Assembly: GCA_023078685.1 (NCBI GenBank)
Contig: JALGAS010000014.1
Coordinates: 186,001-250,000, forward strand
DNA: 64,000 nt
From: Neopestalotiopsis rosae
Lineage: Eukaryota; Ascomycota; Sordariomycetes; Amphisphaeriales; Sporocadaceae
Reading direction: 5' to 3'
Position numbers and translations under genes: made by a program. The notes beneath the pieces were generated by a model. It saw only the letters and a program-made list of their open reading frames with translations, ran no database searches and was not told where the DNA came from. Below are positions 54,297 through 61,875 of this stretch, piece by piece. How positions within the stretch are numbered: position 1 is the first letter of the stretch; each line of letters opens with the position of its first letter.

Positions 54297-56593
54297 ATGG
54301 CTAAAGGACTCAGCTTGTTTGCTCTCGCTTCTTGCCTCTTGTCACTCTCTTGTGCACAGAAATTCGACTCGGCCATTCCTCCAGAGGAAGCCCAGGCTCT
54401 TTCCCAGATTGTAGAAGATGACCCCAACGATGTCTTCCGAATTGCAAAGAGCGGAGAGAGCCCAGAGTATCCTCTGATCTATGGCGTTCCTCTTCCCATT
54501 CCTCCAGTCAAGCAACCAAAGAAGTATGTTCAGGTCTAGAGTGTGCCCATTACCCAGTGCGATCAATACCTACCCACCCTAGTGCGAATCTCCTTGGTGC
54601 GAATATTCATGTTGTGTGTTACTCTTGTATGTGCGAATTTCTGTGTCTTCTATCTTATGTGAATAGTTTCACATTACTATATGCTACTCGAGTCATCAAT
54701 AGTAGTTCGATGACAAATCAGAGTGGAGCTGACAACTGAATGTTAGAATCATTACCAATCCTGTGACTGGTAAAGACATCTGGTACTACGAGGTTGAGAT
54801 CAAGCCGTTCGACCAGCAGGTCTATCCCAACCTGAGCCCTGCCCGCTTGGTCGGCTACGATGGCATCTCCCCAGGCCCAACCTTTGTGATCCCACGCGGC
54901 ACAGAATCCGTCGTTCGTTTCATCAACCAAGCTGAGCGAGAAAACTCTGTCCATCTCCACGGCTCCCCTTCTCGCGCACCCTTTGATGGCTGGGCGGAGG
55001 ATGTTACCTTCCCTGGACAATACAAGGACTACTACTACCCAAACTTTGAGTCTGCACGTCTGCTCTGGTAAGTGACCCAATATTGCTGCCGCGTCGGTTG
55101 GATGTACGATGTTAACAATAGGGACGTATAGGTACCATGACCACGCCTTGGGTATTGTAAGTTGACTTTGACTCATAACTTGGATCAAAACTCTAACCAT
55201 AATACAGACTGCTGAAAATGCGTACTTTGGCCAAGCTGGAGCTTACATCGTCACCGATGCCGCTGAGGACGCCCTGGGTCTGCCCTCTGGGTACGGCGAG
55301 TTTGACGTTCCCCTGATTCTCTCGGCCAAGTTCTACAATCAGGACGGCACTCTCCAGACAACTGTCAACGAGCGAGAGAGCACATGGGGAGATGTTATTC
55401 ACGTCAATGGACAACCCTGGCCTTTCATGAACGTGGAGCCCAGAAAGTACAGATTCCGCTTCCTCAACTCTGCGATCTCTCGCAGCTTTGCCTTGTATTT
55501 CGCCAAGACTTCGGCCTTGGGCGCGAGACTTCCCTTCCAAGTTATTGCTTCTGATGCCGGCCTTCTGGAAAAGCCAGGTAAGCATCACTTACTACATACC
55601 CAAGACCTATGGAAAATCATGCTGACTTGTTATACCATAGTCACCGTAGATGATCTATACATCTCCATTGCCGAGCGCTACGAAATTGTCTTTGACTTTA
55701 CCTCTTTTGCCGGACAGTCCATTGAGATGCGCAATGAAGAGCAAGCCGGTGGCATTGGAGTCGACGACGACTATGAGAACACTGACAAGGTCATGCGCTT
55801 TGTCGTGGGCTCCAACCCTGTCGCTGATCCTTCCACTGTACCTGCTACCCTGCGTGATGTTCCCTTTCCTCCGTCCACCACTGGCGTCGACCACCACTTC
55901 CGCTTCCACCGCAGCAACGGCGAGTGGCTCATCAACGGCGTCGGCTTCGAGGATGTTGAGAACCGTGTTTTGGCCAAGGTCCCCCGTGGTACCGTCGAGA
56001 TCTGGGAGCTCGAGAACAGCTCCGGCGGATGGAGCCACCCGATCCACGTGCACCTAGTCGATTTCAGAGTCATCAAGCGCACCGGCAACGCCCGCGGCGT
56101 CGAGCCCTACGAGGCTGAGGGTCTCAAGGACGTCGTCTGGCTGGGCCGCGGCGAGACGGTCACGGTCGAGGCGCACTACCACCCGTGGAACGGCGTCTAC
56201 ATGTTCCACTGCCACAACCTGATCCACGAGGACCACGACATGATGGCCGCCTTCAACGTGACCCAGCTCACCAACTTTGGCTACAACGAGACTACCGACT
56301 TTGGCGACCCCATGGACCCGCGCTGGCGCGCCGTCGACTACAGCGCCGCGGACCTGTCGGCGCGCGGCGGCGTCTTCACCGACGACGCCATTGTCGACAA
56401 GGTCCAGCGCCTCGCCCTCGAGCAGCCCTACAGCGAGCTCACCCAGGTCGAGGAGGCCCTGACCGAGTACTGGACCGCCAACGGCGCTGGCAACCCCAAC
56501 AGCCCCGTCAAGCGTGATGCCGGTGTCCCCATTCCCCGATACCGCCGGACGCAGCACCACCACTCCCCGGCTGTGCCTGTTGTCGCTGCTTGA
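54297..56593 (+). CDS. Multicopper oxidase (bilirubin-oxidase-like)
   Basis: 631 residues from five exons (54297-54523, 54747-55067, 55132-55156, 55208-55577, 55641-56593); exon 3 is only 25 nt and carries WYHDHALGI. A signal peptide (about 1-20, SCAQ) indicates secretion. All four copper clusters are present: HLHG, WYHDH, HPIHVHL and HCHNLIHED, with the HCH-xxx-H plus Met arrangement of a type 1 site. The layout (GKDIWYYEVEIKPF, AENAYFGQAGAYI, GGWSHPIHVHL) matches fungal bilirubin-oxidase/CotA-like enzymes more than classical laccases. It would oxidise phenols, indoles or pigments by one-electron steps with O2. The first intron is long (223 nt). Confidence 0.92.
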
Positions 56594-58154: not shown

Positions 58155-59026
58155 GATACTAGATTGTATGTAGCAACCTTAACTACTCTGGAAAGCCAGT
58201 GGATGTTGTTAAACTAGACGCGTTTTGTGCTAGAAGCTTGCGACGTGGTATGCACTTGCACGAGGTCCCATTTATGCATGCATCTAACTGAATGCCGGCA
58301 CTTGAACTGACCATTTACCCGGTTGATAATGTTGGAAGACGTAAATAGATGCCCGGCACTCTCAAGGAGTATTCCGGGCTGCACCTGTATGTCGTATTGC
58401 ATGATTGCAAAAATCTCCTGGCGACTCCAACCCTCCGCAGCGCCACATTGGAGTGGCACGGGCTTCACTGTTCCATTGCGGCACTTTGTGCGCATGCATC
58501 ATTTGATTCGCTGCTGCGGCTGCCTATAGCTTCTCCGACCGACCTATGCGAGATGAATCATGAGCTCAATTCGGAATATAGTCCGTGCCGCCCGACCATG
58601 CGCACACCACACCAAGGTCATATTGTTGAATGTGCCACCCCCCCCCCCCCCCCCCCCCCCTTCTTTGGACTGCTGCTGATCACTGTCCGGTCTATTGCCG
58701 CAGGCGACGTCAATACCGACTATCCTGGGCGCCAAATCTTGCTTTAAGCGAAAGTTTATCGTTGCCTCAGAGATTGATATGAGCGGAGATGAATGTATTC
58801 AATATGCAAATTCGGACAAGACAAGCAATATTTAGAATTATAAGTGGGGTAGAGCAGTCCATTGACAGTATAGTCAATGAGTACTATTCTGAATATTGAT
58901 GTTGAAGCTCTTAGAAGCGCGCTCCAGACCCTACTCCAACTTTCTTGCCAAGGCTTATTAAGAACTCATTGGGAATGGAAGCAACCATCTTCATGCATGG
59001 ACGCGTGAACATTGAGGCGCAGCAGT
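58155..59026. other. Convergent intergenic spacer
   Basis: Between the iminopeptidase and the tryptophanase-prenyltransferase fusion. Holds the poly(C) tract at 58638-58660. No gene. Confidence 0.5.
58638..58660. repeat. Poly(C) tract, 23 nt
   Basis: Uninterrupted run of 23 C preceded by TGCCA and followed by TTCTTTG. Second tract of this kind in the window. Confidence 0.9.
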
Positions 59027-61875
59027 CTATCCAAACAACTCCGGTGAAAGATAGAAACCGTTTGACCGGTGACCATTAGACTCCTGCTTGAGACTGATCC
59101 AGGAATGAATCCCTGCCTTCTCTGCCAATGACCGGCGCTGCACTGCACCGATCAGCTTCATGTACCGTTGTCGATACAAAGATGACACATTTGCCACATC
59201 CATATACTGCTTGACCCTCGTCTGAGCCTCTGCATCCGAGCCCACGTAGGAGTCTACTGGAAAGTGCACTGTGCCAGTTGCCTTTGGTTGATCCGTAGTG
59301 ATTGCAAAGCACGAAAGTACAGGCTTCTTAGTGTAAGGGCCTAGAGAACCTCCTGACACGGTCTCGCAGAAGCGTTGGATGTCGTACGAGTTACTAGATG
59401 AACAGACTGAAGAGTGGAATGCAGCGACTCGAGATGCATATGCCTTGTCGTGGGCAATGTATACTTTGACACGTGCACATTGCTCGTCTGCACATAGGTC
59501 CAATGAAAAGTACACGACAGAGTCATTCGAGTCCATGTTGGACTCAATCAGTCGCCACTGGTCACATGCACCAAGACGATTGAATGCTTGACGTGTTATG
59601 TCAAGAGCGTTCTCGTTGCCAGAGGCGCGAGGATCGAGATATACTTTCCACACTGGAGCTTTTTCGCAGAGCGCACAACTATACCAAGCAGCAAAGTTGC
59701 CCCGAGGTTGCGCTGGCATGAAAAGATGGCGAATGCTCTCAAATCGCCGCAATGAGACGATTGACCCATACTGACTTGCGACCGTTTGCATCAGGCTCAA
59801 GGCACATTGCTGAGCCTGCAGCAAATCATACTCGGCAGGTTGCGCTTCGATTAGGAATCGCAACTCCGCCTTACCCGTGTTGTGATTAAGGGCCACTGAG
59901 TACTCGATTGGTGAATGGTCATTGCTCACGTGCGACACCCAGCCGATGTTGCTCAGCTGATCTGGGATCCGAATTTGGCCCAACTGTCCCAATCCCACGT
60001 TGAGTGCGCGGAGAAGTTCGTCCCTAGCCGAGGGACTCTGTCCTATTGCTCGCGAAAGAAATTCAAGCTGACGACTGGACTCGTCAAGCAAAGTTCCAGA
60101 TATTTCCGACGTGACAGGTATAGGCTCAAGGCCGCACGAAAAATGGCGGACACGCATATCCTTGCCTCTTGAAATTCTGACGTTGGGTATCGTGTGTCTC
60201 CTGTCGTAGAGCTGCTTGATGGCAGCGACCGTGTAGTTGATGTGTTCGTCGGACATGACGTGGCGCGGAACAGCGAATCGGACCAGATTGGGAATAAGTT
60301 TCTGCTCCTCGGGCGATTTGCGGTCCCATTCCCAGCCAAACGGACCTGCCTCTGCCGCGCGAATACCAAAGTCCTTGATCAGCTCTAGGCAGAACCCCAA
60401 GCCGGCAAAGTCGCCTGGGCTTCTGCCACAGCCGTAGAAGAAGTCATCCATGTCGAGATATATGGCATGACCCCCAGGAGGAGAAAGCACGGCAATGCCG
60501 CTTGCCTGTAGTCGCTGGCAGAATGATTGAACTTGGCGCACTCGGCCACGAAGGTAGCTCTCCTTCGTGACCTCATATAAGCCAACGACAGATGCCATCA
60601 GATCGCGGCCGCTCACTAGGAGAATTGATTCAACACTGCGCGCTCAGAGCTCTTTTGAGTCAGGGTCACGTATTGGTGAATAAGACTTACTGCCGCCATA
60701 GGAGTCGTTCCCGTAACACAATATCTGCATTTCTTTCAGGAGTACCCCGATGCCCTTGTACCGCTGTGCAAAGAGCCCTTGGTCGCGTAAGCACAGTACA
60801 CCGCCCATGTTGGAAAGACCGTCCTTCTTTAGACTGATGGTGAAGCCTTCAGCATATGAGAACAATTCCTTCACAATGTTGGCGATGGAGACGTCTGAAT
60901 ATCCTTCTTCGAATTCGTGAATGAAGAATGCATTTTCAGCAAAGCGACAGGCGTCATAGAATAGGGGTATCTCTTTACGGGCCGCCAATGACGCAGCTGC
61001 TCGGAGATTAGCCATGGATACTGGCTGCGCGGCTGCCCAGTTGTTTGTAATGGTCATGAGCAACATGTTCACCTGGCTGGGGTGCTCATCAATAAAGCGC
61101 TCGGCGGCAACCACATCCATGTTTCCCTTGAAGTTATTCTTGAGGCCGATTTGATCTTGAGGGAACTCATCACTCAGCCCTGGTTGAGTAAAGGTCTGCA
61201 GCTCGAAACCAGCAACTGCTGCATTGGCACCCGTCGTGTCAAAGAAGCCGTTGCTTATTATGATGGGCTTTTGAGCATGGTCTGACTTAGCATCTTGGGC
61301 CATGACCCTGGCCAGCGTGGAAAACAAAAGCGTCTCCGCGCAGCGGCCTTGAGGAGTGATGAAGAAGTTCGGACGCTCGAGCTGATGGTGACCTCCATTG
61401 AAGAAGCCAACCGAATGTCCTACCAACAGTTTCTTCTGATAGAATTCGCCATCGGCAGAACCCGTGAGGACACTCTCAAAGACGTTTTCCTGTTCATCTC
61501 CTCTTTCGAAAATGTCTCGAAAGGCGTCAAGCAGGCAGTAGTATCCCCAGTTGCGGCCATAGCTTTCATCCCCTCGCAGCACTGTGACGATCGAGTCAGC
61601 ACCAGACGTGAGGCAGTAGTCAGATCGTAGGAAAACCACTCGACTATTCTCATATAATACCACTTACTGGCTGCCCATTGTATATCTGTCATTGCTGAAG
61701 TCCCTGAGTCCGACAAGAAGTCGCAAGTAATAAGTCCAGCAGGGAAAGCAAAAATATTGTATTCGACATCCTTGAGGATGTTTTCACGATATTCAGGTGT
61801 GACTTCCAACAGTGATCTCACAACAAGGGAGTTATGAGTGGGGGCTGAAGGCATAATAACGTTTGTGGCGTTCAT
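59027..61875 (-). CDS. Tryptophanase / DMATS-type prenyltransferase fusion
   Basis: 895 residues from three exons (61875-61668, 61581-60691, 60615-59027), all joins in frame. Residues 1-~530 are a PLP-dependent beta-eliminating lyase (tryptophanase/tyrosine phenol-lyase fold I): DSGTSAMTD, QWAAMLRGDESY across intron 1, TGANAAVAGFEL, YDACRF (cofactor Asp at D279), SLKKDG with the Schiff-base lysine at about K322, SYGGMSGRDL across intron 2, PPGGHA. The C-terminal VRHF (His ~524) matches tryptophan indole-lyase, where tyrosine phenol-lyase has Phe. Residues ~536-895 are an ABBA/DMATS aromatic prenyltransferase: NDHSPIEYSVAL, WKVYLDP, ARVKVYIAH, TVHFPVDSY. At ~360 residues this half is like short bacterial enzymes. 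Predicted: L-Trp to indole, pyruvate and ammonia, then prenylation of indole. Cytosolic; no signal peptide. Confidence 0.9.

Follow-up and report, generated by a model that had tools for sequence, protein, structure and literature searches.

A fungal gene in Neopestalotiopsis rosae combines a tryptophanase and a bacterial-type prenyltransferase: a candidate prenyl-indole synthase

A 64,000-nucleotide stretch of Neopestalotiopsis rosae DNA (hereafter, the window) contains a gene that appears to encode a tryptophanase and a DMATS-type prenyltransferase in one chain. This raises the question of whether the two halves truly belong to one protein and, if so, in which order they would act. The gene lies on the minus strand (61875–59027), and its three exons are predicted to encode a protein of 895 amino acids, with the following features:

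61668..61875, minus strand: exon 1, start codon at 61875, supported by translation and a conserved junction
61582..61667, minus strand: intron 1, 86 nt, GTAAGT...CACAG
60691..61581, minus strand: exon 2, bulk of the tryptophanase half (PF01212)
60616..60690, minus strand: intron 2, 75 nt, GTAAGT...CCTAG; the exon 2 frame meets a stop codon inside it
59027..60615, minus strand: exon 3, end of the tryptophanase, linker, and the entire prenyltransferase half; stop codon at 59027–59029
60112..61875, minus strand: predicted tryptophanase half, residues 1–535, interrupted by the two introns (PF01212, 8sl7 match, and Foldseek)
59030..60094, minus strand: predicted DMATS-type prenyltransferase half, residues 541–895 (ten-strand barrel)
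60824..60826, minus strand: codon of Lys322 (second Lys of SLKKDG), the expected Schiff-base lysine
59903..59905, minus strand: codon of Glu604 (SPIEYS), the expected catalytic base of the prenyltransferase

The sequences across the two splice junctions, WAAMLRGDESYGRN and NDSYGGMSGRDLMA, are conserved in 49 homologous fusions, as judged by comparison with their consensus, and this conservation demonstrates the predicted gene structure. Translation, Pfam, and the conserved junctions bore out the preliminary description in its two canonical introns, its coordinates, its motifs, and its domain boundary. The junction between the domains lies at approximately residue 535, near base 60112, and falls within exon 3, as had been claimed in arguing against a splicing error.

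In a domain search of the 895-residue product, two Pfam families scored above cut-off: PF01212 at residues 52–495 (E 1.6e-49, 169 bits; cut-off 27) and PF11991 at residues 589–843 (E 7.7e-11, 42.4 bits; cut-off 25). When solved structures were searched by sequence, residues 10–532 matched the Butyricicoccus tryptophanase 8sl7 (479 bits, E 2.2e-142). A model of P0002, a homologue from Biscogniauxia, was built from 49 sequences, drawn from the 77 full fusions described later, with a mean pLDDT of 85.8 and a pTM of 0.84, and this predicted structure resembled 8sl7 in Foldseek (TMt 0.90, 46% identity). The whole fold and the active-site residues of 8sl7 and E. coli TnaA are as in the fungal N-terminal half, whereas solved tryptophanases comprise 430–570 residues and, unlike the fungal fusion, have no prenyltransferase half.

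The alignment shows that K322, D279, R282, N249, and R479 are invariant in all 77 full fusions. We take K322 to be the Schiff-base lysine, by assignment from TPL and TnaA, and D279 and R282 to be the cofactor Asp and Arg of the lyase half. The Lys322 position is also occupied by Lys in 20 of 20 tryptophanase-only proteins and in 7 of 7 bacterial tryptophanases encoded beside DMATS genes. The N. rosae protein contains both D184 and H524, presumably the Asp and His that mark Trp over Tyr lyases (D137 and H463 in TnaA; T124 and F448 in TPL); H524 is replaced in 11 of the 77 fusions (by Val in 10 and by Leu in one). The site aligned to Met379 of TPL is Ala or Cys in 51 of the 77 fusions, versus 4 of the 20 tryptophanase-only proteins, and at the TPL Arg381 site, where the groups are separated less clearly, Ala or Ser occurs in 74 of the 77 fusions and also in 13 of the 20. 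A small residue at the Met379 site would fit a roomier lyase pocket, a weak hint from rows that are related to one another.

For the C-terminal half, the nearest solved relatives are L-Trp prenyltransferases. By sequence, residues 572–876 match 6zrx (E 2e-27) and residues 541–893 match CymD (E 1.5e-22), and the predicted structure contains a complete ten-strand alpha-beta-beta-alpha barrel. E604, R619, K690, Y692, R748, K750, and Y752 are all present in the aligned N. rosae protein; we take E604 to be the catalytic base and the remaining six to be the Arg, Lys, and Tyr residues that bind the diphosphate. Glu occupies position 604 in 74 of the 77 fusions and in all 38 bacterial rows. Residues other than Arg are found at position 748 in 15 of the 77 fusions and, given that H524 varies too, members of the family need not all be active or share one reaction. 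Sequence matches and modeling together show a bacterial-type tryptophan prenyltransferase fold. The bacterial enzymes PriB, 6-DMATS, 5-DMATS, CymD, and IptA are free-standing and 24–28% identical to the fungal half, and fungal DMATS enzymes (FgaPT2, DMATS1, and others) share its superfamily. Five other DMATS genes in the N. rosae genome score 238–326 bits on PF11991, versus 42 for the fusion, and the fusion hence carries a different kind of DMATS from these five. One of these five, on contig C15, has an in-frame TAG within the matched stretch, and another DMATS lies approximately 0.4 Mb away on that contig (L028 and L027). As the preliminary description held, one gene carries both domains in full: the predicted polypeptide combines a complete PLP-type tryptophanase with a complete bacterial-type tryptophan prenyltransferase, and the expected catalytic residues are present in both.

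Homologues were collected by a search with the whole protein (120 listed of 997 matches) and a search with the prenyltransferase half (57 new of 75), which gave 177 distinct proteins; fusion counts given here describe this list and not nature. Among the 177 listed, 77 span the greater part of each half and 39 span a part of each; a further 20 match only the lyase half and 41 only the prenyltransferase half. The full fusions among the matches listed come from Xylaria, Hypoxylon, Biscogniauxia, Nemania, Rosellinia, Podospora, Colletotrichum, Metarhizium, Corynespora, Diaporthe, Mycena, and the liverwort Riccia sorocarpa, as well as from metagenomes, so that the sources named are mainly ascomycetes, plus Mycena and R. 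sorocarpa. On record, the fusions among these matches are named tryptophanase, beta-eliminating lyase, PLP-dependent transferase, or hypothetical protein. Judged by protein sequence, the fusion is widespread and not peculiar to one gene.

Pairwise identities of the lyase and prenyltransferase halves, calculated for the N. rosae query and the 77 full fusions (3003 pairs), are correlated (Mantel r 0.86, a value reached in 0 of 999 permutations), as expected if the two halves travel together. The mean pairwise identity in this set is 68% for the lyase half and 47% for the prenyltransferase half. These comparisons show the halves to have been kept together across a large, mainly fungal family. In the N. 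rosae genome itself (53.8 Mb, 17 contigs), the lyase half had three matches, every one of them within the fusion gene, i.e., a single lyase copy was found.

Trees were made for each half by quick searches. The prenyltransferase tree contained the window protein, 36 of the 77 full fusions, 7 of the 39 partial fusions, 16 of the 20 DMATS-only proteins assumed to be eukaryotic, 14 of the 21 assumed to be bacterial (P0157–P0177), and 24 DMATS stretches from 23 bacterial loci. The lyase tree, which carried a long-branch warning, contained the window protein, 36 of the 77 fusions, all 20 tryptophanase-only proteins, and seven bacterial tryptophanases. In both trees, single-domain relatives (tryptophanase-only or DMATS-only) fall inside groups of fusions, which implies either that the halves can part or that those gene models are cut; the tryptophanase-only and DMATS-only proteins may thus be partly truncated gene models. 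The DMATS-only proteins P0139, P0140, and P0148 (P0139 and P0148 being named Penicillium) and their relatives lie among fusions; these proteins may have shed the lyase half and taken on a different function, or they may be cut gene models. Across the 16 eukaryotic standalone DMATS rows, Glu occupies the Arg748 site in nine and Leu the His817 site in nine. Another set of DMATS proteins, from Myxococcaceae, Chamaesiphon, and others (P0160–P0162, P0164–P0167, and P0169), is 603–637 residues long and has extra sequence; in three of these, PF14518 adjoins the DMATS domain and is a possible other fusion partner.

Of the four R. sorocarpa proteins (P0049, P0079, P0152, and P0153), the one full fusion is encoded on a 31.9 Mb contig. 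A lyase-only and a DMATS-only protein share a contig of 52.3 Mb, and a second DMATS-only protein is encoded on one of 45.9 Mb. In the quick prenyltransferase tree, the DMATS domains of the three Riccia proteins that have one fall among the fungal fusions as a single starred group, and the two Riccia lyase domains pair with each other in the lyase tree. This grouping suggests transfer from fungi, with duplication later. Prenylated indoles are mentioned from the liverwort Riccardia, a different genus from Riccia, in the accessible parts of two reviews (PMC7911284, PMC10096483).

The same two enzyme types also occur together in bacteria. The preliminary description had them as separate neighboring genes in Streptomyces, and this arrangement was seen in actinomycetes, both in the accessible parts of a published study (PMC3617294) and in the bacterial loci examined here. 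According to those parts of the study, IptA-type enzymes sit with a tryptophanase in actinomycete Type A clusters (Streptomyces sp. SN-593), IptA adds its prenyl group to C-6 of Trp while the side chain is still in place, and the tryptophanase is suggested as a possible source of 6-prenylindole; a conservon cassette lies alongside in Type A clusters, and some actinomycete clusters include a P450. The same source describes SCO7467 as acting on Trp and, when given indole-3-acetonitrile instead, as forming several products, the two identified being 2- and 6-prenyl isomers; the amino-acid side chain thus seems to influence regiochemistry.

Pattern and tblastn searches located 23 bacterial DMATS loci, of which six carry a tryptophanase (Nostoc, a Myxococcaceae MAG, Enhygromyxa, Acrocarpospora, Allokutzneria, and Amycolatopsis), and none was detected at E 1e-4 in the other 17, several of which are short. 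A DMATS gene was found in 13 of 200 genomes from the order of Allokutzneria, and in 10 of these 13 loci, one of them from the Allokutzneria genome already among the six, a tryptophanase gene lies directly downstream on the same strand. As for the remaining three, no tryptophanase was detected in two short loci, and the third matched neither query; the 13 loci span only approximately 3–4 kb, from which a more distant tryptophanase would escape. At 364–454 residues, the open frames that enclose these 13 DMATS matches are all unfused, and no bacterial fusion was seen in the 23 and 13 loci, a small sample. The tryptophanase gene comes first, on the same strand as DMATS, at the Nostoc locus (L006). 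Two myxobacterial loci have the two genes on opposite strands, and in Acrocarpospora two tryptophanases surround one DMATS (L007, L010, and L015).

The Type A clusters resemble the fungal fusion in enzyme types and likely chemistry (Trp to prenyl-Trp to prenyl-indole), but have two separate genes where the fungus has both halves in one. Enzyme types that recur as bacterial neighbors and form one protein in fungi point to a shared pathway, and this analogy is strong indirect evidence that the tryptophanase and the prenyltransferase act in one. Simple capture of a bacterial operon was considered and is not supported. The fungal lyase half shares only 29–34% identity with tryptophanases encoded next to bacterial DMATS genes, compared with 46% between P0002 and the Butyricicoccus enzyme; the prenyltransferase gene comes first in the 10 bacterial pairs, whereas the fungal domain order is the reverse; and the seven DMATS-adjacent tryptophanases, the only bacterial ones in the tree, make up a separate branch.

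The surroundings of the gene were searched with Pfam in six frames. Between 44.2 and 64 kb of the window, matches above cut-off were a CMAS-type methyltransferase, a multicopper oxidase, an alpha/beta hydrolase, and DUF3471, the last being the end of a beta-lactamase-related protein whose main part lies beyond the window. One further scan within this region yielded only a match below cut-off. The next 17 kb contain GH47, a Fringe-like match, DUF3176, HET, a short-chain dehydrogenase, and DUF3425, with one of the scans there yielding no match. No P450, FMO or other monooxygenase, NRPS, PKS, or Type A conservon part was recognized by Pfam in the 44.2–64 kb region or the next 17 kb, and a biosynthetic cluster around the fusion gene was accordingly rejected for this region. 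A fusion gene that stands alone is consistent with a route that stops at prenyl-indole or shortly beyond it. Telomere proximity was also rejected, as neither TTAGGG nor CCCTAA was found in the outer 2 kb at either end of contig C6 (425 kb). Pieces of the multicopper oxidase lie on the plus strand at window positions 54820–56263, approximately 3 kb from the fusion gene, and a run of 23 C (58638–58660) lies between the hydrolase gene and the fusion gene.

Based on sequence, modeling, and analogy, we think it fairly probable that the gene encodes a bifunctional prenyl-indole synthase in which Trp is prenylated and then cleaved; a self-contained prenyl-indole synthase is the best reading. The substrate, ring position, order of steps, channeling, product, and role that we infer would be as follows. 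The C-terminal half would transfer the dimethylallyl group of DMAPP onto the L-tryptophan ring system, with C-6 as a guess taken from the nearest enzymes, and the N-terminal half would then cleave prenyl-tryptophan into prenyl-indole, pyruvate, and ammonia. Fusion would fix the two activities at 1:1. Tryptophanases are tetramers, and a tetrameric lyase core would therefore carry four prenyltransferases. One guess is that the small product may serve as a diffusible or volatile antimicrobial or signal.

The preliminary description had proposed the opposite order, in which indole freed from Trp by the lyase half would be prenylated by the other half before it could escape. The presence of both domains in one chain would suit this order, as would the presumably Trp-specific Asp and His of the lyase half, with which plain tryptophan should be a substrate. 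We nevertheless consider it unlikely, since the nearest solved relatives of the prenyltransferase half bind L-Trp and, in the accessible parts of PMC3617294, IptA and SCO7467 act on Trp, the paired actinomycete pathway prenylates Trp first, and SCO7467 yields mixed products from indole-3-acetonitrile. Prenylation of Trp before cleavage is favored by this analogy. Rather unlikely, too, is a protein whose two activities share no intermediate, the prenyltransferase acting on another indole or aromatic acceptor, or the lyase running in reverse to join prenyl-indole, pyruvate, and ammonia into prenyl-tryptophan. Tryptophanase is described as able to run reversibly in the accessible parts of a 2021 survey (PMC8537960), the prenyltransferase half is the more diverged of the two, and its diphosphate-site residues are changed in some members, but both the recurrence of this enzyme pair in bacteria and the Trp route already described (PMC3617294, same parts) argue for one pathway.

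It is very improbable that the prenyltransferase half is decaying or structural and that the protein is a tryptophanase only. Several sources among the matches listed do name the fusions for the lyase side, and the prenyltransferase half is less conserved, but the predicted barrel is complete and the catalytic residues are intact here and in most of the 77 fusions. That an error of assembly, splicing, or gene modeling joined two genes is barely conceivable: the junction lies within one exon, and the 77 full and 39 partial fusions among the 177 listed homologues, from many sources, speak against an assembly or splicing artefact.

Colletotrichum, Fusarium, Podospora, and Metarhizium are among the fungi covered by the 2021 survey of tryptophanase genes, which places their clade beside Blastocystis, and a word count in the accessible parts of its main text found no words beginning with prenyl or DMAT (PMC8537960). 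In a literature search that lay outside preprints and most subscription papers, no report of the fusion was found in the titles and abstract starts of the matches listed, and tryptophanase and DMATS occurred together only in a review of nematicidal compounds. The component enzymes and the logic of the pathway are already known; no description of the fused form in eukaryotes, or of how widely it occurs, was found in that search.

The fusion indicates a direct one-gene fungal route to prenylated indoles that is easily missed, as names cover the lyase half only. It offers a ready two-step biocatalyst to try and a clean case for asking whether fusion brings channeling, and it is a candidate gene for prenylated indoles in liverworts. 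More tentatively, and as a possibility that we would not yet expect to hold, the fusions may form a widespread, unrecognized eukaryotic class in which a single protein prenylates Trp and then cleaves it with hand-over between the halves; such a fusion would have come together in fungi separately from the bacterial pair and been transferred to liverworts. If so, this enzyme class could explain the prenylated indoles reported from liverworts.
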